Assembly: GCA_023137315.1 (NCBI GenBank)
Contig: JAGLPP010000004.1
Coordinates: forward strand, 1-58,371
Source of the DNA: Bacteriovoracaceae bacterium
Lineage (GTDB): Bacteria; Bdellovibrionota; Bacteriovoracia; Bacteriovoracales; Bacteriovoracaceae
Direction of reading: 5' to 3'
Length of the DNA: 58,371 bases
In this document: piece after piece, positions 16,869 through 30,140 of the stretch
Layout of the letters: the number at the start of each line of letters is the position of its first letter
How positions within the stretch are numbered: the first letter of the stretch is position 1
The notes under the pieces: generated by a model
What the model was told of the DNA's origin: nothing
Databases searched by the model: none
Seen by the model: the letters and a program-made list of their open reading frames with translations, nothing else
Translations under genes and position numbers: made by a program

Positions 16869-17081
16869 TTAAACTTCAATAACCTTTTCAATCTTAACAG
16901 GTTCTTGTGCTTTTTCATCCAATTCAACAACATAACCAACAGGTCTTCTTTCCTGGGAAGACTGGCTTGCCGAACAACTGTAATTACCATCAACCTGTCC
17001 CTCTTTATTCTCTTTATTGACCGCAAAAACATTACCACTAAGAATGGTAAACACTGCAAGTAACATAAATAATCTTTTCAT
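16869..17081 (-). CDS. Small secreted protein A, RRP-VV family
   Basis: 70 residues from the ATG at 17081, which has AAGGAGAGGA directly upstream. A signal peptide (about 1-20, cleavage after VFA) leads to a ~50-residue mature protein with one Cys (NYSCSAS). The segment ERRPVGYVV resembles DRRPGKVV in the neighbouring small protein at 17303-17542, and both end in an acidic Val/Glu-rich tail, so they look like paralogues. It follows the other small gene and an RHS/YD-repeat gene on the same strand. Function unknown. A run of eight G lies just beyond its stop (16852-16859). Confidence 0.7.
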   Translation of the reverse strand: MKRLFMLLAVFTILSGNVFAVNKENKEGQVDGNYSCSASQSSQERRPVGYVVELDEKAQEPVKIEKVIEV

Positions 17082-17187
17082 AATCCTCTCCTTGTGTTGC
17101 CTCTCTATTTGAACCTTTAAGATGCACACATTATGCCAAACTATTTGACCTATATACTGGAGGTTATATTGGAATCAGCTACGAAAA

Positions 17188-17551: not shown

Positions 17552-19186
17552 CTACATGTTCAAATTAACACCAGCAGGTTTTACAATCGAAAGCAATGAC
17601 TGAAACGCCTGGGTCACCTGAAGGGCCATCTTATGTCCCTGCTTTGATTCCACCTTCTTTATGCCACCGTAATTATCGTAATCAACTCTGATGGTTCCCT
17701 TTCCTTCCATGGCAATTGTAGTTGGTTTTCCAAGAACGTTGTATTCAAATTTCAACTTTCGCTTACCCTTTTTACCGGTAGTGTCTATCATCTGGGTAAT
17801 TCTTCCCTTCCTGTCGTAAGACAAGACAACCTTTTTACCGCCACTATTCGACGCCATCTGCAAATTGCCTCTTCCGTCATACTTAAATTTTGTCCAACTG
17901 AGTTTCTTGCTCTTTTTCCAATTTTCCACCTGGCGAATTTTGTTGTGTTTTTTATCATAAGCTATTTTTACAACATCACCACGACTTGTTTTCTTTTCAG
18001 TAAGAAGCCCGCTGGAATTATACTTGAAGAGCGTTTCAAAACCGCCACGTTTGATTTTCTCCGGAAGTCTGAACTCATTATAACCAGTATCAGTGGTAAT
18101 ACCATTAACTGAAGTGATAATTCTTGACGTATACCTGGCACCATCGGCTTTTGTCTTGATAAAATACTCGTATTTATTTACGCTATCCTTTCCCCCGAAT
18201 CCTTTCTTTGCCACCTTTGTCCAATAATGAAAGTCAGGTTTTTTTGAATCCGCCCCGTATTCATATTTAACCTTGACTCCATGACGATTCTTAATACTGG
18301 AAACAAACTGCGTCTTTTGTTCGTAACCAACCTCCATTTTCGATCCATCGGCGTAACCGACCCCTATCATATTGTGGTTGGAATCATACTTATATTTAAA
18401 AATGTTTCCGGCCACGTCCTTGCTTTCCAATAAATCCTTTTCCTTGAATTTGTATACCGCAGCTTTATCATCAACTGACCAAATCTTCTTCACACGATTG
18501 TTTGAATACCATTCGAAGAACAACTGTTTAGCATGGGAATCCTTGATGGACTTTAACGATCCCTGCTTATCGTAATTAAGATTTATCACATAATTGTTCT
18601 TATCCTGTATCCGAACAAGCCTCCCTGAAGAATTATATCGCTCCCATTTACCGTTATTGTAATAACGTATAAAACCATCTGCAACCTTCTTCAGCTTCTG
18701 TGGCCCATGATCATTTGAATAAAGCATTGAATTATTTGCTATCTTTGCGTGAACACCAAACCGCTTGGCGTAGGCTTGTCTTAATTCCGCGTCACCCTTT
18801 AACTGATCGACAAGTTTTTTCTCCTGCTTTATATCGAGTTCCGTTCCACGTTCTCTCATCTTTCCAATAATTGTTTTGGACGCAGCCTCAGCATCAACAA
18901 GACTTTTGGGAACAAATCTCGTCAAGGCACCTGCCCCGTTTTCGTGAATTATCACAGAACCGTCAGCCGATATGACAAGATATGTTTCAAAATCACTTCC
19001 CCAACCGAAACCGAACCAGCCGACATCAGTGGACTTCGAATTATACGTCCTAACGATTTTCAAATCCTGACCTTCACCTGGCACTACAATATCCGTGTAC
19101 GAAATGTAATAGTTTCCGTTTTTCAGATTCACACCAGCATAAGAAATTACAGGAAGAAGAAGAAAAAGAATTTTCAATAATTTCAT
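17552..19186 (-). CDS. Secreted RHS/YD-repeat protein without toxin tail
   Basis: 544 residues. A signal peptide (about 1-17, SYA) is followed by a DUF6531-like start (LKNGNYYISYTDIVVPGEGQDLKIVRTYNSKS) and WFGFGWGSDFE. From ~165 come YD-type repeats such as VINLNYDKQGSLKSI, KYKYDSNHNMIGV, LFKYNSSGLLTE, KFKYDGRGNLQ and KFEYNVLGKPT. Typical RHS toxins exceed 1,000 residues and end in a conserved core plus toxin; here both are missing, and the end (LSIVKPAGVNLNM) is short. It may be a structural surface shell or scaffold. It heads an operon with the small secreted protein B gene and lies just after the Tad locus. Confidence 0.85.
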   Translation of the reverse strand: MKLLKILFLLLPVISYAGVNLKNGNYYISYTDIVVPGEGQDLKIVRTYNSKSTDVGWFGFGWGSDFETYLVISADGSVIIHENGAGALTRFVPKSLVDAEAASKTIIGKMRERGTELDIKQEKKLVDQLKGDAELRQAYAKRFGVHAKIANNSMLYSNDHGPQKLKKVADGFIRYYNNGKWERYNSSGRLVRIQDKNNYVINLNYDKQGSLKSIKDSHAKQLFFEWYSNNRVKKIWSVDDKAAVYKFKEKDLLESKDVAGNIFKYKYDSNHNMIGVGYADGSKMEVGYEQKTQFVSSIKNRHGVKVKYEYGADSKKPDFHYWTKVAKKGFGGKDSVNKYEYFIKTKADGARYTSRIITSVNGITTDTGYNEFRLPEKIKRGGFETLFKYNSSGLLTEKKTSRGDVVKIAYDKKHNKIRQVENWKKSKKLSWTKFKYDGRGNLQMASNSGGKKVVLSYDRKGRITQMIDTTGKKGKRKLKFEYNVLGKPTTIAMEGKGTIRVDYDNYGGIKKVESKQGHKMALQVTQAFQSLLSIVKPAGVNLNM

Positions 19187-19286: not shown

Positions 19287-20177
19287 CTAAATCCGGATAT
19301 TAACAATCTTAAGGATTATATAACCGCCTAAAACATCCAATCCTATAGCACCAAATAAAAAGACAAGCCCCAGAGGTGTGTTGAAAATCGGCATCATTGA
19401 ATCCGGATCAGATGCAAAATACATCAATCCAACGATCCATGGCATACAAAAGATGGTAAGTCCCTGAAATCTTCCTTGAGCTGTGGCAGAATCAATTTTT
19501 TGCTTCAAACGTATCCTTTCACGGATTACATCAACAATTGTGTCAAATACTTCCGACAGGTTACCCCCTGTTTCGCGTAAGATATTTACACTGGATACAA
19601 ACATATCGTTATCCTCTGTTGGCACTCGCTTGGCCAGATTTTCAAAGCATTCCTCGAGTGTCACTCCAATCTGGTTCTGTTGCAAAATCATATTAAATTC
19701 CTGCGAAATCGGGGCCGGCATTTCATCAACAATCATCCCCAATGCCTGCGGAACGGAAAGCCCTGCCCTTATACCGTTTGAGAGCAAAGTCAGAGCATCA
19801 ACCATTTGCCCTGAATATTTATCAATCCTCCTCTCAAGAAGATAATTAATTATCGGCTTTGGTATTTTCCAGCCAACAAATGAAAAAACAAATCCCAAAA
19901 ATATCCCCAACCCCCAACTACCAAAAAGACCGAAAATAACCAGGGTCAGCAGACCTGTTCCAAACGAAAAAAATAATAACGCGTAAGTAATATGTGTAGG
20001 ATTGACCTTGATAAAAAGAAGTTCAAGCTTCTCCATTATATAATTCTGAGTTCCAAACGTATTTCTCTCAATCCAATCAAAGATCTTTTCAGAATACTTG
20101 TACACATAGAAAAATACTGCAATTCCAATAAGAATAATGATCCATTGCAAACCCAGCACTCCAGCTATCGTACTCAT
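19287..20177 (-). CDS. tadB: TadB/TadC-type (T2SSF) pilus platform protein
   Basis: 296 residues with hydrophobic segments near 10-27, 62-105 and at the C-terminus (~240-293). The middle soluble T2SSF/GspF domain has SNGIRAGLSVPQALGMIVDEM and ILRETGGNLSEVFDTIVDVIRERIRLK. It forms the inner-membrane platform that the TadA ATPase acts on. The start ATG overlaps the stop of the upstream TadZ-TadA gene by 4 bases (ATGA). Most Tad loci carry two such genes; only one is here. It is the last gene of the locus. Confidence 0.9.
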   Translation of the reverse strand: MSTIAGVLGLQWIIILIGIAVFFYVYKYSEKIFDWIERNTFGTQNYIMEKLELLFIKVNPTHITYALLFFSFGTGLLTLVIFGLFGSWGLGIFLGFVFSFVGWKIPKPIINYLLERRIDKYSGQMVDALTLLSNGIRAGLSVPQALGMIVDEMPAPISQEFNMILQQNQIGVTLEECFENLAKRVPTEDNDMFVSSVNILRETGGNLSEVFDTIVDVIRERIRLKQKIDSATAQGRFQGLTIFCMPWIVGLMYFASDPDSMMPIFNTPLGLVFLFGAIGLDVLGGYIILKIVNIRI

Positions 20178-22360
20178 TTTTTGACTCTCTGTCTTTGAGC
20201 TTTGGATACAGGATTATGTTCCTCTTTCTTCTGTGGAATATCCATTTGATCTTTATTTGTAAAAAGGGTTCTCGGAATATTGTAACCCTGGCGTTCCAAA
20301 ATTTCGATAAACTTGGGAATAAAACCGGTAGCCTGGAATTTTCCAATTATTTTTCCCTTCTTATCAATTCCCTCCTGTTGATAAAGAAAAATATCCTGCA
20401 GGATCACTACATCCCCCTGCATACCTCCAATTTCCGTTATGTGTGTCATTTTTCTTGAACCATCATCCATTCTGGATTGTTGTACAATCATGTGAACAGC
20501 ACTTGCAATCATTTCACGAATAACTTTTGGCCCCAAGCCTGATCCGGCATATTGGACCAGGGTCTCAAGTCGTCCAATGGCCTCTCTGGGATTATTTGAG
20601 TGAATTGTTGTCATTGAACCATCGTGACCGGTACCCATCGCTTGAAGCATGTCCAGTGCCTCCCCGCCACGACACTCACCAACGATAATTCTATCCGGTC
20701 TCATTCTAAGCGTCTGCTTTACAAGACAGCGGATATCAATCTCGCCTTCCCCTTCAAGAGACGGTGGTTTTGTCTCCAAACGAACCACATGCTCCTGCGG
20801 AAGATCAATTTCCGCTGAATCCTCACATGTGATGATCCTTTCATTTGCCTGGATAAACGCTCCAAGAATATTTATCAAAGTTGTTTTACCTGAACCGGTA
20901 CCACCGCTGACTATAATATTTCTATGCCCCTCAACAGCAATTCGCATGAAATCCGACATGTTCTGTGTCATTGATCCAAATTGCACAAAATCCTTCCAGG
21001 TCAATCTATTTTCAGGAAATTTCCTGATCGTAATACAACAACCATCTATTGCAGAAGGTGGAATAATTGCATGAACCCTGGAACCATCCCTCAAACGTGC
21101 ATCAACATAAGGGGTTTTCTCATCAATCCTTCTCCCTATGGGGGCCACAATCCTTTCAATAACATTTAAAACCTGACGATCATTTGTGAAAGTTACATTG
21201 GAAAGTTTGATTTTTCCGGATTGCTCATAATAAACCTTGTACGGACCAATCACCATGACTTCTGAAACTGTTTTATCTCCAAGAAGATCCTCCAACGGTC
21301 CCAATCCCAATGCCTCATCCAAAACTTCTTTAACGATCTGGTTCATATCCTCACGACTACTGAGAATACCCTTTGTATCTTCCTTGCCAAGAATTTCAAC
21401 AACTTTCTTTTTCGTTTTCTCCCTTAAAATTAATGCTGCATTTGGATCATCCTTATTCTGTTCACTAAAATCAATTTCATCCACCAGTGATTTGTGAATC
21501 CTTGTTTTAAGATCAATCCATGGTCTGTTGCCTGAACCGGCTTTTTTGTCATTCTTGCCGGAGGATTCCATTGCAAGCTTTTTAGTTTCCGGTTTTTTAT
21601 TCAGCCTTGATAGGCTTTGCAGGACATTTTTTTGAATAATTTTACGTACACATTCAATCATTCCCCTGGCAAAAAGACTTTTCTTGAATGCAACAACAAC
21701 AGGCTTTTTTACATTCAGTGCCTGGATGCACCATTGTTCATCCCTTGGAAGTGTGTGGAAAGTCCCCTTTCCAATTTGTTTTGAAACAACCTCTGAAGTA
21801 ACCGGATGACCCTTGACCTGTTGATTAACAATTATCTGAATCATATCCTTTGGAAAAAGCATCGTTATTAAATCGGTATAAATACGTTTCGTCTGGTTTA
21901 CTGCGAGTATGTCCGGAGTCACAACAAGAAAAATTACTGTCGAAAACTCCATTGCCTTTAATGCGAGTTGGTTTAGTTCACTTCCACAATCTATAACTGT
22001 AAGTTTATAGATATTCGGAACGGCCTTCAGAACCTTGCCAAGACCCTCTGGATCAATATTTGCAGATGTCGTTGTATCTGTTGGCATCGAAACATATGAA
22101 ACACCAGACGGATGATGGGATACAAATTGCAAAAGTGACTTTGGGTCTATTGCACCTTTAAAATCCGCCAAATCCTTTATGGTTTTTTTGGACTTCATCC
22201 CGGTAATAAAATTTTGATCACCACTTGCCTTCTGATCAAAATCCATCAAAAGAACTTTTGTTCTTGCCTCCTGTGCATATGCAAAAGCCAGATTTGCAGC
22301 AACCTGTGATTTTCCGACACCACCCTTACCCCCTGCAATAGCGACAACATATCCGGCCAA
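20174..22360 (-). CDS. TadZ-TadA fusion: ParA-like localisation domain plus Flp pilus ATPase
   Basis: 728 residues in two blocks. Residues 1-250 are a MinD/ParA-type ATPase like TadZ/CpaE: GGKGGVGKS (11-18), the LLMDFDQKASGD strand with Asp40, and VIDCGSE (122-128). A polar linker (~250-285) leads to a complete CpaF/TadA secretion ATPase (~285-690): GGTGSGKT (486-493), CEDSAEIDL (512-520), RPDRIIVGECRGGEA (Walker B/Asp box) and HDGSMTTIHSN (His box). The usual Tad locus encodes these as separate proteins, so placing the pilus and powering it are joined here. The start is a TTG with GGGGGAG 6 bases upstream, abutting the stop of cpaC. Confidence 0.92.
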   Translation of the reverse strand: MAGYVVAIAGGKGGVGKSQVAANLAFAYAQEARTKVLLMDFDQKASGDQNFITGMKSKKTIKDLADFKGAIDPKSLLQFVSHHPSGVSYVSMPTDTTTSANIDPEGLGKVLKAVPNIYKLTVIDCGSELNQLALKAMEFSTVIFLVVTPDILAVNQTKRIYTDLITMLFPKDMIQIIVNQQVKGHPVTSEVVSKQIGKGTFHTLPRDEQWCIQALNVKKPVVVAFKKSLFARGMIECVRKIIQKNVLQSLSRLNKKPETKKLAMESSGKNDKKAGSGNRPWIDLKTRIHKSLVDEIDFSEQNKDDPNAALILREKTKKKVVEILGKEDTKGILSSREDMNQIVKEVLDEALGLGPLEDLLGDKTVSEVMVIGPYKVYYEQSGKIKLSNVTFTNDRQVLNVIERIVAPIGRRIDEKTPYVDARLRDGSRVHAIIPPSAIDGCCITIRKFPENRLTWKDFVQFGSMTQNMSDFMRIAVEGHRNIIVSGGTGSGKTTLINILGAFIQANERIITCEDSAEIDLPQEHVVRLETKPPSLEGEGEIDIRCLVKQTLRMRPDRIIVGECRGGEALDMLQAMGTGHDGSMTTIHSNNPREAIGRLETLVQYAGSGLGPKVIREMIASAVHMIVQQSRMDDGSRKMTHITEIGGMQGDVVILQDIFLYQQEGIDKKGKIIGKFQATGFIPKFIEILERQGYNIPRTLFTNKDQMDIPQKKEEHNPVSKAQRQRVKK

Positions 22361-23896
22361 TTATCTCCCCCTTCTGAATTTACGTTTAATTTCCTCTGTT
22401 CCAGAAGACGCAGAACTGATAATTTCAGGAGTTATAAACATAACAAATTGTGATTTCGATACAATCTGGGACTTTGATCTCAAAAAAGAAAATAGTGGAA
22501 CCCCTCCTTCAACTTGAGTATCACCTCCTGGAGGATCCTTGTCATATTGTGTTTCATTCTTTTTGGAAAACACCCCGCCAATAACCGCCGACTCCCTGCT
22601 TTTCACAAGAAGTTCGGTTTTTACCTTGTTTTTCAAAGTCTCCGAGCTGCCAGCAGTTCCTTTTGCCGAAACTGTATCCGAATTCAAGCTAATATTCATT
22701 TTAACAAATTCGTCCTGGAGGATCTCTGGCTTGACAGTTAACGCAAAACCACCTTGTACATTGTGAACATCGTTGGTGTATTCTCCAGTCGAAAATTTTG
22801 TTGAAAGAAGTCTTGTTTTTTCCAAGCTGGCCTCAAATTTGTCCTTTACTATTATTATTCCTGATTGCAATATCCGCGCATGTCCTGCATTTTTCGCAGA
22901 TGATAATTTGGGAAAAAGATGGGAAATTGTACCTGTAAGTGAACCTTCCGACTGTGTTGTGACGGCCCCGCTGGCCCCTTTGCCAAATTTTATCGATCCA
23001 CCGGTTCCGGCAAGTAATGGTGACCATTTAAATCCAAAAATATCACTGAATGATTTGGTGAGTTCCACAAATTGTGCCGTGATTTTTACCAGCTTCGGCA
23101 ACGGCGTTTTTTCCTTTTTGGCATCAATAACAATAAAATCCTGTATTGGATCCTTGACCACAAATTTAATCTGGGAGTTTTCAACCCTTCTTGACAGGGT
23201 TTCATAGTCATCAGGCAAATAAATTGTTGCGATTTTCATTGCCTTATCCGCTTCCGTCTTGGATCTTACAATCCCCTCAAGAATAAATAATTTATTTAAA
23301 ACACGAACTGTAACATTTTTAAGTCCCACAGAATGAATTTCTTCCTGCATCTTTCTTGCAATCACCCTTTGAGAATGCGGTGACAATTCCACCATGTTAA
23401 CCACTTCCTTGTGCTTTGTAAGAACGTAACTGATTTTACCTATATCTTCCGGAATAACCACATGGCCGGTTAACGTAATAGTATCACCTATTATCTTTAT
23501 TTCGACACCTTCAACCCCGTCCAGAAAAGATCTTATGTCCTGAAGGATTTTTGATTGTGGATTTGTTGTCACTTTGACTTTGAAAATTTTTCTGATTGTA
23601 CCCGTAACATCTCTAAGCGTAACATTTGTTTTCCCGAACTTTAGTCCTTTCAGTGTTATTTCCTTCCTCCCTATTATTGGCTGTGTTTCAACAATGGCCC
23701 TGGATCCTATCTGGATCTGCCTGTCCGGAACGAAATCAAGTTCAATATTTTTATCAATTCCCAACACCACTTCAACTTCTTCCTCAATACTCGTTTTCGA
23801 TTTTGCCTCTTTTTTTAAATCGATTATCTCCTGCGCCAACGATACTTGGACCAGGCAAAAAATATTCAATAGAAAAAATATAAATAATCGTTTCAT
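22361..23896 (-). CDS. cpaC: CpaC/RcpA-type secretin of the Tad pilus
   Basis: 511 residues with a signal peptide (about 1-21, SLAQ). It forms the outer-membrane channel. The N-terminal pilus-assembly region (SRAIVETQPIIGRKEITLKGLKFGKTNVTLRD) is followed by BON-like repeats (~118-200: LDGVEGVEIKIIGDTITLTGHV) and the secretin domain (~265-495) with KFSTGEY, VQGGFALTVKPEIL, VIGGVFSKKNE and PLFSFLRSK. The C-terminal tail is basic. It sits between cpaB (2 bases) and the TadZ-TadA fusion (0 bases). Confidence 0.93.
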   Translation of the reverse strand: MKRLFIFFLLNIFCLVQVSLAQEIIDLKKEAKSKTSIEEEVEVVLGIDKNIELDFVPDRQIQIGSRAIVETQPIIGRKEITLKGLKFGKTNVTLRDVTGTIRKIFKVKVTTNPQSKILQDIRSFLDGVEGVEIKIIGDTITLTGHVVIPEDIGKISYVLTKHKEVVNMVELSPHSQRVIARKMQEEIHSVGLKNVTVRVLNKLFILEGIVRSKTEADKAMKIATIYLPDDYETLSRRVENSQIKFVVKDPIQDFIVIDAKKEKTPLPKLVKITAQFVELTKSFSDIFGFKWSPLLAGTGGSIKFGKGASGAVTTQSEGSLTGTISHLFPKLSSAKNAGHARILQSGIIIVKDKFEASLEKTRLLSTKFSTGEYTNDVHNVQGGFALTVKPEILQDEFVKMNISLNSDTVSAKGTAGSSETLKNKVKTELLVKSRESAVIGGVFSKKNETQYDKDPPGGDTQVEGGVPLFSFLRSKSQIVSKSQFVMFITPEIISSASSGTEEIKRKFRRGR

Positions 23897-23898
23897 AA

Positions 23899-24714
23899 CT
23901 ACTTCTTTTTGGATTTGGAGTATTTCTCGACAAAAAATGCTTTTGCCTCCATGGAATCCTCTCCAAGAACATCAAATATCTTTGTTGGTTTTATGTTCAC
24001 CCTTGCGCTGTCATTATTGTTCCTTAACACAAGATACGGTTGAGCATTGGCATATGTTAGCAAAAATACAAGTTTTTGAGCTTCAAATGAAGTCAATTCC
24101 AACGCAACCGTGTTGTATGCCGAATAAACACTAAGATTCATTGCCTTGATAACCTTATCAGTCTTTTTTCCATATATAGGGAGGGAATTTGTCATATTCA
24201 TTCCGGTTGACAGCACAAGCACATCCTGCAAAACCGTTGTTGTCTTTTGACGATGTTTCTGTCCGGATGAATAATCAATTGCGGCCAGGACATCAACCCT
24301 GTCACCAGGCTTGATAAGTTTACTCACGGCCTGTCTTTCTGTAATCGTAATTGATATTGCCCTCTTACCCGGACTGACCTGACGAGACAGTCCCGTTTTT
24401 ATCCCTGGATAAGATACTCTCGGACTGGTTATCTGTTCGCCTTTTTTAATTGGTACCATCGCCACCGTATTCATCAATTCCTTCATCTTGGAAAATGTTC
24501 CAGGCATGGCGAAATTTTTAGGAACTTCCATCATCTCCAGTTTTGAATCATCAAGCAATTCAAGTTCCTTGATATCCCTTTTGGCAACAACAACCGTTAC
24601 CAACTCCCCGTATTTTTTTAAGGTATTACTCCTTTCATCCTCAATGTAGGTATGAACCAAAAACATGGCGGCAAGGGCCAGAATTATTGCCAACGAAAAA
24701 GCACGTGTATTCAT
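23899..24714 (-). CDS. cpaB: CpaB/RcpC pilus assembly protein
   Basis: 271 residues with one N-terminal membrane anchor (about 5-24). A SAF/CpaB domain follows: VVVAKRDIKELELLDDSKLEM, VPIKKGEQITSPRV, GKRAISITITERQAVSKLIKPGDRVDVLA and the TTTVLQDVLVLS strand are typical. It is a periplasmic accessory of the secretin. AGAGGA lies before the ATG. The gene is followed at once by cpaC. Confidence 0.92.
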   Translation of the reverse strand: MNTRAFSLAIILALAAMFLVHTYIEDERSNTLKKYGELVTVVVAKRDIKELELLDDSKLEMMEVPKNFAMPGTFSKMKELMNTVAMVPIKKGEQITSPRVSYPGIKTGLSRQVSPGKRAISITITERQAVSKLIKPGDRVDVLAAIDYSSGQKHRQKTTTVLQDVLVLSTGMNMTNSLPIYGKKTDKVIKAMNLSVYSAYNTVALELTSFEAQKLVFLLTYANAQPYLVLRNNNDSARVNIKPTKIFDVLGEDSMEAKAFFVEKYSKSKKK

Positions 24715-24825: not shown

Positions 24826-25338
24826 TTATTGACGAATGCAGAAACCAGAGTTCCAGTGTCCATTACTGATATCCATGAAATTGTCCGGCCCAATAACATT
24901 AAAAAAATACGCCGTACAAACGCCATGAACTGAATAAGGACGAATAAATTTTGATTTCGGAGCAGTAGAGTCAATTGCGTCGGTATCCTCACAGGTATCA
25001 CTGGCATCCTTGGATACCAATTCTTCAAGCTTGTAACAGGATGCTACTGCTTCCCTGCCGTCTTGATAGTCCATCCATCCCAAAGTATGCATACCGATCA
25101 TTTTCAGTCCGCCGGAATCATACAGTCCCTGCAAATCCTGTGGAGTTGGAATTTTTGTATTACTTTTAACTAGAAAATAAAAATAACCCCTGACTGATTT
25201 TATCTGATTAATGGAGCCATTTATTGATGCCGCAATTGTAATGGTCACCAGAAACATAATCAGGATAAGCGGTAAAAACATAAAAAACTCTATTATCGCC
25301 TGACCTTTCTCGTCAATTTTTTTAAACAACATAAACAT
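24826..25338 (-). CDS. TadE/TadG-like pseudopilin
   Basis: 170 residues from the ATG at 25338, 3 bases after the stop of the upstream gene. The start KGQAIIEFFMFLPLILIMFLV is a TadE-type pseudopilin helix (Gly-Gln-x-x-x-Glu-Phe then hydrophobic). The rest, with five Cys, is exported. Likely a minor component of the pilus, with class III processing at the Gly-Gln region not obvious. It follows two other pseudopilin genes. Confidence 0.8.
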   Translation of the reverse strand: MFMLFKKIDEKGQAIIEFFMFLPLILIMFLVTITIAASINGSINQIKSVRGYFYFLVKSNTKIPTPQDLQGLYDSGGLKMIGMHTLGWMDYQDGREAVASCYKLEELVSKDASDTCEDTDAIDSTAPKSKFIRPYSVHGVCTAYFFNVIGPDNFMDISNGHWNSGFCIRQ

Positions 25339-25340
25339 TT

Positions 25341-25922
25341 TTAACAACCATTATCAAAAAGAGTGAAATGAACCCCTGCCTGGCAATCTCCTCCAACTGC
25401 CTTGAGTGCTTCACACATTCTATATGCACAAGTGGATCTTGTTGGTTCCTTTCCCAGAAACGATTCCGATTTCAAATTCAATTCGGATTTTCCACCCAAA
25501 AGACCTACGGTAAATCTCTTTTTGAAATCAAATGAGGCTCCCACATATGGTAGACCCGTCACATCTGTGGGATGCTTGATACTGAAAGTGCCAAAACCCA
25601 AATCAATAAATTTTCCCATGATTTTTTCTGCTTCCTTGGCCGCAACATCATCCGCCCCGGAAGGATCGTTGCTGTTTACATCAATAACAGAATACGTTCT
25701 ACTCGCCATATAAGTCGCATAATGGACCATATACCCATCAGTCACATTAAGAGCGATCTTGATAAATAAAAAAAGAATTCCCAACGTAAATGAGAATGTC
25801 ATAATAAATTCGATAAGAGACTGTCCACTCTCCGTCCGATTATCAATCGGGATATTTCGAAAGTGGCATGAAAAATCTTGTTGATCTTCCCTTTGGAGAA
25901 GACGGATTAATATAGAGTTCAT
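25341..25922 (-). CDS. TadE-like pseudopilin, long
   Basis: 193 residues from the ATG at 25922, which has GGGGG close upstream. After ~35 basic residues comes ESGQSLIEFIMTFSFTLGILFLFIKIAL, the TadE helix, then an exported region with several Cys near the end (CAYRMCEALKAVGGDC). The gene overlaps the previous pseudopilin gene by 80 bases in another frame, unusually long, because the TadE motif lies only shortly after the overlap. A later start is possible but no ATG/GTG/TTG with a ribosome site precedes the helix within the overlap. Confidence 0.75.
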   Translation of the reverse strand: MNSILIRLLQREDQQDFSCHFRNIPIDNRTESGQSLIEFIMTFSFTLGILFLFIKIALNVTDGYMVHYATYMASRTYSVIDVNSNDPSGADDVAAKEAEKIMGKFIDLGFGTFSIKHPTDVTGLPYVGASFDFKKRFTVGLLGGKSELNLKSESFLGKEPTRSTCAYRMCEALKAVGGDCQAGVHFTLFDNGC

Positions 25923-26154
25923 GCAACCCCCCACTGTCTGTTGTAGATACATCATCATACCCTGGCGATCCATGGCGATAAGAGTATTCCTGATATTTTT
26001 TTAAGGCCAGAAAAAATGCTGAATCGGAACCCATAAAATCCTTGAATCTGCTGCTTCCCAAAATCGAAATGGATATGGTTCCAAGTACTGCCAAAAGTAA
26101 AATATACTCGACAACGCTCTGACCTTCGTTGTAGCACTCCCTACCAGATAACAT
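25843..26154 (-). CDS. Small TadE/Flp-like pseudopilin
   Basis: 103 residues from the ATG at 26154 with GGAG upstream. NEGQSVVEYILLLAVLGTISISIL near the start is an Flp/TadE-type signature. The remaining ~70 residues are polar. The start lies inside the last 14 bases of the prepilin peptidase gene, suggesting translational coupling. A longer frame is open to 26223 but has no ribosome site. Confidence 0.75.
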   Translation of the reverse strand: MLSGRECYNEGQSVVEYILLLAVLGTISISILGSSRFKDFMGSDSAFFLALKKYQEYSYRHGSPGYDDVSTTDSGGLHELYINPSSPKGRSTRFFMPLSKYPD

Positions 26155-26650
26155 CACGATAACTCCATCCGAAAAAAATCCACGCCAAAAATAATACCGG
26201 CGCATAAGCAAACTTTTTACCAAAAATTATTCCGGCCAATTGTTTAAATTCCCCGCTTCTCACGAACACAATCACCATGGAAAAACTTTTTAACACCTTC
26301 CAAACAAGTAAACACAAACTGACCACAACTGTCATCTTTACAAGCTCATAAAACAGGGCCTCATGATAAACACATGGAACCAGAAGATAAAAAGTAAAAA
26401 GATACTTCGCATCACCTGCACCCATTATGTTAAGCCAAAAAAGCAGAAAACCCGCCAATAAAACCCCTATAGGAAAATAAAATGTTGATAATTGTAAAAT
26501 AAAAAAATCCGGATAAATAAAAAATAAAATAATAAAAATCACCAGATTAATAACAGACCAATAGTTGGATATCTTATTATATTTCAAATCCAAATAAGAA
26601 ACCGCCGTTAATTCCAAAAGTAAAAATAAATAAAGGGCCTGAAATTTCAT
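26141..26650 (-). CDS. cpaA: Prepilin peptidase, TadV/CpaA type
   Basis: 169 residues, the short A24 form without the methylase domain. The two catalytic aspartates are in SYLDLKYNKISN (Asp21) and GAGDAKYLF (Asp79). Five or six hydrophobic helices match a polytopic aspartyl protease. It processes the Flp and pseudopilin leader peptides. It overlaps the previous pilin-like gene by 4 bases at the start. Confidence 0.93.
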   Translation of the reverse strand: MKFQALYLFLLLELTAVSYLDLKYNKISNYWSVINLVIFIILFFIYPDFFILQLSTFYFPIGVLLAGFLLFWLNIMGAGDAKYLFTFYLLVPCVYHEALFYELVKMTVVVSLCLLVWKVLKSFSMVIVFVRSGEFKQLAGIIFGKKFAYAPVLFLAWIFFGWSYRDVIW

Positions 26651-26862
26651 TCAATATTATTTTTATATGCTCTAAAAAAACAGGTTGATTCACACACTCC
26701 TGTTTTAAGTTGTCTTGAAAGCACCACTGCCAATCCTCCGATATTTGAAGACATAAATCCCTGAAGGGCCTTGACAAGATTAATTGAAATCATGGCCATG
26801 ATACAAAGAAAAATAAGATATTCCACCACGGCCTGACCAAAAATTTTTTCACGCTTCATCAT
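26647..26862 (-). CDS. Second Flp/pseudopilin-like small protein
   Basis: 71 residues from the first ATG (26862); a second ATG follows directly and no clear ribosome site is seen for either. FGQAVVEYLIFLCIMAMISINLVKAL is an Flp/TadE-type pilin helix. The tail has two Cys (CESTC). It lies after a hairpin that separates it from the main flp gene and overlaps the peptidase gene by 4 bases. Confidence 0.68.
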   Translation of the reverse strand: MMKREKIFGQAVVEYLIFLCIMAMISINLVKALQGFMSSNIGGLAVVLSRQLKTGVCESTCFFRAYKNNIE

Positions 26863-29306: not shown

Positions 29307-30140
29307 TTACGAAAGTAATTTCAAGGCCACGTTGGGAAAATTATTGGCCTGACTCAGAACAGACACACCCGACTGCATTAAAATGTTGTCCCTAGTAAGA
29401 TCTGCTGTCGCCTTTGCCACGTCCACATCACGGACTCTGGAATTGGCTGCAGACAGATTCTCATCATTAATAGACAACGTGTTAAGCATCGATGTAAGCC
29501 GGTTCTGCATTGCCCCCAACTCAGCTCGCACTCCATTAACATGAACCAGGGAATCATCCAATCTCTGGAGCGATAATTGCGCCCCCTCTTTTGAACGAAC
29601 CGATTCATCCGAAAGACCCAACGAAATAAGCGTTGTGTCAGCCTTTGTACCATCGTAACGCACTCGATCCAGCAAAGGATTGTTATGAATTCCAACCTGA
29701 AACTCCATAAGACCGCCGCTTCCATCAAGGAGCTTTGTTCCATTAAACTCCGATGATTTGGCAATCCTGTCAAGTTCCTCCTTGAGCTGTTGGAATTCAA
29801 TATCAGAGAAGGATCTTTCAGTATTTCCAACAGTATCCGAGGCCGCTTGCATTGAAAGTTCGCGTAGCCTGATAATAATACTGGAAATCTCATTCAAACC
29901 ACCTTCTGCTGTTTGGACAAGTGAAATAGCATCCCCTGCATTTCTCTTGGCCTGTCTTAATCCCCGTATGCTTGCTTTTAAATTTTCACTTATCGCAAGC
30001 CCAGCTGCATCGTCTCCCGCCTTGGTTATCCGTTGACCGGAAGACAATTGACGTAAATTACTATTCATTCGTCTTGTCGTAGCTGATAATGATCTCTGCG
30101 CCGACAGTGACGGTACATTTGTATTAATTCTAAGACCCAT
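29307..30140 (-). CDS. fliC: Flagellin, copy 1
   Basis: 277 residues, the size of compact flagellins with D0/D1 only. The N-terminal MGLRINTNVPSLSAQRSL, LSSGQRITKAGDDAAGLAISENLKASIRGL and the C-terminal ANSRVRDVDVAKATADLTRDNILMQSGVSVLSQAN are textbook. A short variable middle (about 140-210) has no D2/D3. AAAGGAGAT lies 7 bases before the ATG. A TTGAAC/GTTCAA hairpin (30186-30202) lies in the leader. It and the next gene are tandem paralogues. Confidence 0.97.
   Translation of the reverse strand: MGLRINTNVPSLSAQRSLSATTRRMNSNLRQLSSGQRITKAGDDAAGLAISENLKASIRGLRQAKRNAGDAISLVQTAEGGLNEISSIIIRLRELSMQAASDTVGNTERSFSDIEFQQLKEELDRIAKSSEFNGTKLLDGSGGLMEFQVGIHNNPLLDRVRYDGTKADTTLISLGLSDESVRSKEGAQLSLQRLDDSLVHVNGVRAELGAMQNRLTSMLNTLSINDENLSAANSRVRDVDVAKATADLTRDNILMQSGVSVLSQANNFPNVALKLLS

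Follow-up and report, generated by a model that had tools for sequence, protein, structure and literature searches.

Introduction

TadZ is thought to position the Flp pilus, and TadA is its motor. In Caulobacter, CpaF alone powers both directions, and its disordered first 78 residues are not needed for pilus extension as judged by a phage-infection test (PMC11300603). An in situ model of the Caulobacter machine surrounds the CpaF hexamer with a ring into which six CpaE dimers are fitted; contacts between the dimers are attributed to their receiver (REC) domains, and CpaE shifts from the membrane to the CpaF base in the piliated state (PMC13170226). The Bdellovibrio Tad operon is controlled by the flagellar sigma factor FliA, and its Bd0111 protein was detected in attack-phase cells by mass spectrometry (PMC5430801). 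The RHS protein of the Bdellovibrio Tad/hit locus is Bd0109 (PMC3818213). Bd0111 has been labelled TadA, TadB or ATPase in the Bdellovibrio literature searched, never a fusion, and two of these papers exchange the tadA and tadB labels. Here we describe a Tad locus within the window, a stretch of 58,371 nucleotides of Bacteriovoracaceae DNA, in which a TadZ-like ParA domain and a TadA motor are encoded by a single gene (tadZA).

Organization of the Tad locus

The genes flp, tadV, rcpC, rcpA and tadB stand together around the tadA-containing tadZA gene, confirming the Tad pilus locus of the original prediction. The operon runs in the order flp, tadV, Flp-like pilin, two TadE/F-like genes, rcpC, rcpA, tadZA and tadB, followed by an RHS/YD-repeat gene:

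26647..26862, minus strand: flp pilin of 71 aa, the operon's first gene, with the canonical GQAVVEY motif
26141..26650, minus strand: tadV prepilin peptidase (PF01478, 26.8 bits against a cut-off of 26.5)
25843..26223, minus strand: Flp/TadE-like pilin with a GQSVVEY motif
25341..25973, minus strand: TadE/F-like minor pilin, assigned from a GQSLIEF segment and position, with no family match
24826..25347, minus strand: TadE/F-like minor pilin, assigned from a GQAIIEF segment and position, with no family match
23899..24714, minus strand: rcpC/cpaB (TIGR03177, 149.5 bits, cut-off 71)
22361..23896, minus strand: rcpA/cpaC secretin (Pfam search)
20174..22360, minus strand: fused ParA(TadZ-like)-TadA gene, tadZA (728 codons, 728 aa, TTG start)
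19287..20177, minus strand: tadB, inner-membrane platform (T2SSF), its start overlapping the tadZA stop
17552..19186, minus strand: RHS/YD-repeat protein, Bd0109 homologue, after tadB
16869..17129, minus strand: small ORF, putatively secreted, corresponding to Bd0108 in position only

Intact Bdellovibrionota loci from seven families were checked, and in these an RHS gene lies 3' of tadB; its product has a conserved C-terminal ending (PAGVNLNM-like) in Tad loci phylum-wide. It may be a constant surface or signalling part associated with Tad. In the hit locus, Bd0108 is the protein of the lifestyle switch, and the ORF at 16869-17129 occupies the corresponding place. A flagellin gene (29307-30140) lies near the Tad operon, and no consensus match to a FliA-type promoter was found upstream of the operon in the window.

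A tadC-like T2SSF gene is present elsewhere in the genome (L122:9165-10079), unlinked to the Tad operon; it stands alone after a dnaK-dnaJ-mreB region, and its best-matching Acidobacteriota relatives are the platform genes that come second, after tadB. A profile of the fused ParA domains revealed no second, stand-alone TadZ in the window's own genome, the next-best ParA being a 279-aa MinD/FlhG-like protein at 64 bits. The genome also encodes a solitary TadA paralogue of 376 aa (L121:8376-9506) that has no ParA part and branches with the fused TadAs. This paralogue adjoins a cupredoxin-like ORF and a large subtilisin-like protein in otherwise unrelated surroundings, with no other pilus gene beside it, and has relatives in many members of the family.

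Domain architecture of the fused protein

The tadZA reading frame (minus strand, 22360-20174) is one uninterrupted ORF. A GGGGGAG ribosome-binding sequence lies a few bases 5' of the TTG start, and the rcpA stop immediately precedes it. Five features were distinguished within the gene:

21599..22360, minus strand: ParA/MinD domain, aa 1-254, without a receiver domain in front
22307..22333, minus strand: deviant Walker A motif GGKGGVGKS, aa 10-18, tested positions invariant in 72 fused sequences
21530..21598, minus strand: fast-evolving linker predicted to be disordered, aa 255-277 (pLDDT < 50)
20252..21529, minus strand: TadA/CpaF motor, three-helix N-terminal domain and ATPase core, aa 278-703 (CpaF match)
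20882..20905, minus strand: TadA Walker A motif GGTGSGKT, aa 486-493 (motif and conservation)

The original prediction of a complete ParA-like domain and a complete secretion ATPase joined by one linker in a single ORF was borne out, with both domains above their Pfam cut-offs: CbiA/AAA_31 (ParA/MinD) matched aa 5-209 and T2SSE (PF00437) aa 351-629, the latter at 198.7 bits. AlphaFold2 predicted two confident domains separated by a disordered segment at aa 255-277. The predicted ParA half resembles solved ParA/MinD folds, with 3ea0 as the best match (TM-score 0.92 by target). The full model matched CpaF 8rjf in Foldseek with an E value of 4.5e-48 and 46% identity, and the C-terminal 448 aa matched solved Caulobacter CpaF at 412 bits across the length of CpaF.

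The C-terminal part has the T2SSE domain with the Walker A, Asp and His boxes of a TadA/CpaF motor ATPase, and its CpaF-like similarity is full-length, including NTD1. The motif GGTGSGKT and residues E513/D514, E562, H579 and H587 are all intact. The TadA part missed the NCBIfam TIGR03819 cut-off (298 versus 373 bits); since TIGR03819 is a narrow hypothetical-equivalog model and not a family definition, the miss counts against membership of that subgroup only.

The N-terminal part is a ParA/MinD ATPase domain of the kind found in TadZ/CpaE, with its Walker A motif GGKGGVGKS, D40/D42 and D124 all intact. It begins at aa 2, the window protein has no Response_reg match ahead of it, and it lies within the same ORF as TadA and not in a separate protein. 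As a description of the gene, "TadZ-TadA fusion" therefore needs qualification: the natural ParA-TadA fusion stands, but the N-terminal part is a REC-less, TadZ-like domain and not a whole TadZ.

An internal start yielding free TadA was considered and appears unlikely from the sequence, as the only candidates near the linker, ATG264 and GTG293, have no clear ribosome-binding site. Nor is there support for an amphipathic membrane helix of the MinD type at the junction, where the hydrophobic moment is unremarkable (at most 0.5).

Conservation among fused proteins

Conservation was measured against the window protein in 72 fused sequences, nearly all from Bacteriovoracaceae. Mean identity was 61% for ParA, about 14% for the linker (aa 256-280) and 81% for the TadA core. 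The nucleotide motifs, which had been predicted to be intact in both domains, are conserved throughout this set, the tested ParA and TadA positions being identical except in one or two sequences that end at contig ends. The 72 sequences were picked by their Walker A strings, so Walker A invariance is by construction; the invariance of D40, D42, D48 and D124 is independent of that selection, and K12, K17, D42 and D124 are also invariant in an independent alignment of 20 diverse fused rows. The identity of the ParA nucleotide residues in all 72 indicates that the ParA NTPase is under strong constraint in this set.

Two families depart from this pattern. In the small-genome family f4 (L147:4819-7575, L148:4990-6852), the fusion is kept while the GGKGG signature, switch motifs and parts of the ParA domain have been lost. 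With the signature lysine and switch motifs gone and TadA intact, the ParA NTPase is dispensable in this family. In a genome of family f5 (L163:1358-2758), an FHA-like domain replaces ParA in front of TadA.

Proposed role of the ParA domain

The fusion puts the ParA domain beside the three-helix domain of TadA. We propose that the fused protein is most likely a hexamer of the CpaF type in which each subunit bears a ParA domain on a flexible linker, six in all. These domains would pair in an ATP-dependent manner and, by touching the membrane or a landmark, would keep the motor at the base of the pilus; with ParA tethered in this way, neither a separate TadZ nor its receiver domain would be needed. 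Because of the fusion there is one ParA per TadA (1:1), compared with six CpaE dimers per CpaF hexamer in the Caulobacter model. On balance we favour this account, in which ParA pairing and docking keep the hexamer at the pilus base. It is plausible that the ParA part localises the pilus, or that localisation is tied to the motor; the same data would also fit a ParA part that regulates or tethers. Against positioning stand the decayed ParA motifs of f4, the FHA-like-TadA protein of f5 and the solitary paralogue, the latter two without ParA.

It is rather less likely that ParA acts mainly as an allosteric gate of the motor, governing extension versus retraction or engagement, with its nucleotide state altering TadA subunit geometry or TadB/TadC docking. 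The relocation of Caulobacter CpaE from the membrane to the CpaF base on piliation (PMC13170226), the driving of both directions by CpaF alone (PMC11300603) and a junction at the TadA N terminus, adjoining the three-helix domain, would all suit a gate. A linker that is poorly conserved and predicted to be disordered, however, argues against rigid allosteric coupling.

A third possibility, that ParA serves as a passive tether for the membrane or the hexamer, with its ATPase unneeded and its motifs persisting for folding, is improbable. Family f4, which retains the fusion with decayed ParA motifs, is consistent with such a tether, but conservation of catalytic residues is not expected under pure tethering, and K12, K17, D40, D42 and D124 are invariant in the 72 fused sequences, as are K12, K17, D42 and D124 across the 20 diverse ones. 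Sequence alone cannot separate the three accounts; we rank positioning first, gating second and passive tethering last.

A bolder version of the positioning account may be advanced tentatively: the fused Tad motor would position itself with ParA and TadA in an exact 1:1 ratio, giving each hexamer three ParA dimers, and without a receiver domain or separate TadZ, so that motor assembly would set the pilus site in these predators.

Distribution of fused and split forms

Among 59 sampled relatives, 48 gave a single match in one open frame that begins at aa 1-5 and extends to aa 701 or beyond, and the others were contig-end breaks, f4, f5 or solitary-paralogue cases. A phylum search of Bdellovibrionota matched 363 of 369 genomes; nearly all of the roughly 150 matches listed were full-length fusions, and the stops counted inside some matches were terminal where checked (L157, L207). 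All intact Bacteriovoracaceae loci found by name were fused. In B. bacteriovorus HD100 (a single contig of 3,782,950 bases), Bd0111 is a 753-codon ParA-TadA frame, its locus having been recognised via six published primer sites that all fall in one locus.

Outside the phylum, a draw of 99 Acidobacteriota genomes yielded the fusion in four, one of which carries two copies. In two others a split pair was picked up as a single match, and further Acidobacteriota genomes had a TadA to which no ParA was fused. A fusion was seen in none of 100 Actinomycetota and 249 Pseudomonadota genomes. In 11 of the former and about 9 of the latter, tadZ immediately precedes tadA, in frame with it but separated by a stop; the search joins same-frame pairs only, and these counts are uninformative on other frames. 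The split arrangement, verified in nine loci, has the order and frame of the fusion with a gap of 3-40 nt (L180-L188, Actinomycetota and Pseudomonadota), and the closest pairs are one stop-codon change short of fusion. About 140-260 residues precede the ParA domain in split TadZs, whereas none do in fused forms, and weak Response_reg matches were obtained in two of three split TadZs tested (L178, L180). Localisation and motor functions are normally on separate proteins, as originally stated, and other lineages have two genes for them.

We conclude that the ParA-TadA fusion is a real, old and nearly phylum-wide architecture, shared with some Acidobacteriota. It is not a singular event: the original prediction underestimated its extent, which includes the well-known Bd0111. 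That prediction would have been undercut by an arrangement both common and already described. The arrangement is common; no description of it as a fusion was found in the literature searched, and an earlier one is possible in the founding TadZ papers, which lay outside that search.

Origin of the fusion

In the unrooted TadA tree, one branch parts the split forms from the fused forms and solitary paralogues (98/99), and it persists when long branches are removed (99/99). With all fused forms on one side of this branch and all split forms on the other, the most economical reading is one ancient event, in which the TadA N terminus probably acquired a ParA domain that is TadZ-like but lacks REC. 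The simplest account has this one fusion of a receiver-less TadZ common to Acidobacteriota and Bdellovibrionota by descent or transfer. Later loss of ParA is the simplest history for the solitary paralogue, which lies on a long branch and whose placement is therefore unsure.

The N-domain (ParA) tree, unrooted and weakly supported, does not reject one fused clade (p-AU 0.178), and TadZ and other MinD-like origins are not firmly separated in it. Recruitment of the ParA part from a MinD/FlhG-like protein instead of TadZ is fairly unlikely. The missing receiver domain, minD_arch as the top NCBIfam match and the placement of two non-Tad FlhG-like proteins near the fused group in this tree would favour it. 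True split TadZs, however, are likewise topped by MinD models, giving the same MinD-like NCBIfam profile as the fused ParA part; the best-scoring relatives in a fused-ParA profile search are split TadZs (up to 143 bits, compared with 64-82 bits for non-Tad MinD/FlhG-like proteins); and the fused domain order agrees with the split tadZ-tadA gene order. These comparisons suggest that the fused ParA part likely descends from TadZ.

A frameshift, assembly or sequencing error that merged two genes, which would have overturned the original prediction, is virtually excluded because dozens of independent genomes, some of them single contigs such as HD100, show the same single frame.

Comparison with known Tad systems

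The TadA part of the window protein has the same three-helix N-terminal domain and active-site boxes as CpaF of C. crescentus (PDB 8rjf, 8rkd, 9e24); where the first 78 residues of CpaF are disordered, the fused protein carries a whole ParA domain. With TadZ/CpaE, which consists of a receiver domain and an ATPase, it shares the ParA domain, and split loci have tadZ directly before tadA; it differs from TadZ/CpaE in lacking the receiver domain and in not being a separate protein. The Acidobacteriota fused TadZ-TadA proteins (L174-L177) have the same domain order and also lack a receiver domain, and their TadA parts lie with that of the window protein on the fused side of the branch dividing fused from split forms. 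Their loci have tadC beside tadB, unlike the window genome, and no RHS gene was found in the stretches of them examined.

Bd0111, the "TadA" of the B. bacteriovorus hit/Tad locus, is the same fusion, and the gene order rcpC-rcpA-tadZA-tadB-RHS is common to both loci, whereas Bdellovibrio lacks TadV (PMC5430801) and the window locus has tadV. Bd0111 is accordingly re-labelled as a two-ATPase protein; predation requires the flp1 and flp2 pilins encoded in its Tad operon.

Being natural and conserved, the fusion serves as "Rosetta stone" evidence for TadZ and TadA acting as one unit, and provides a natural test of their coupling. Stoichiometry is its strongest consequence: the fixed 1:1 ratio, together with the absence of the receiver domain proposed to link CpaE dimers in Caulobacter, makes models of the machine directly testable. 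The fused motor is an ancient variant of the known Tad machine, and if it does position itself with one ParA per TadA, its organisation would differ from the 12 CpaE : 6 CpaF model of Caulobacter.
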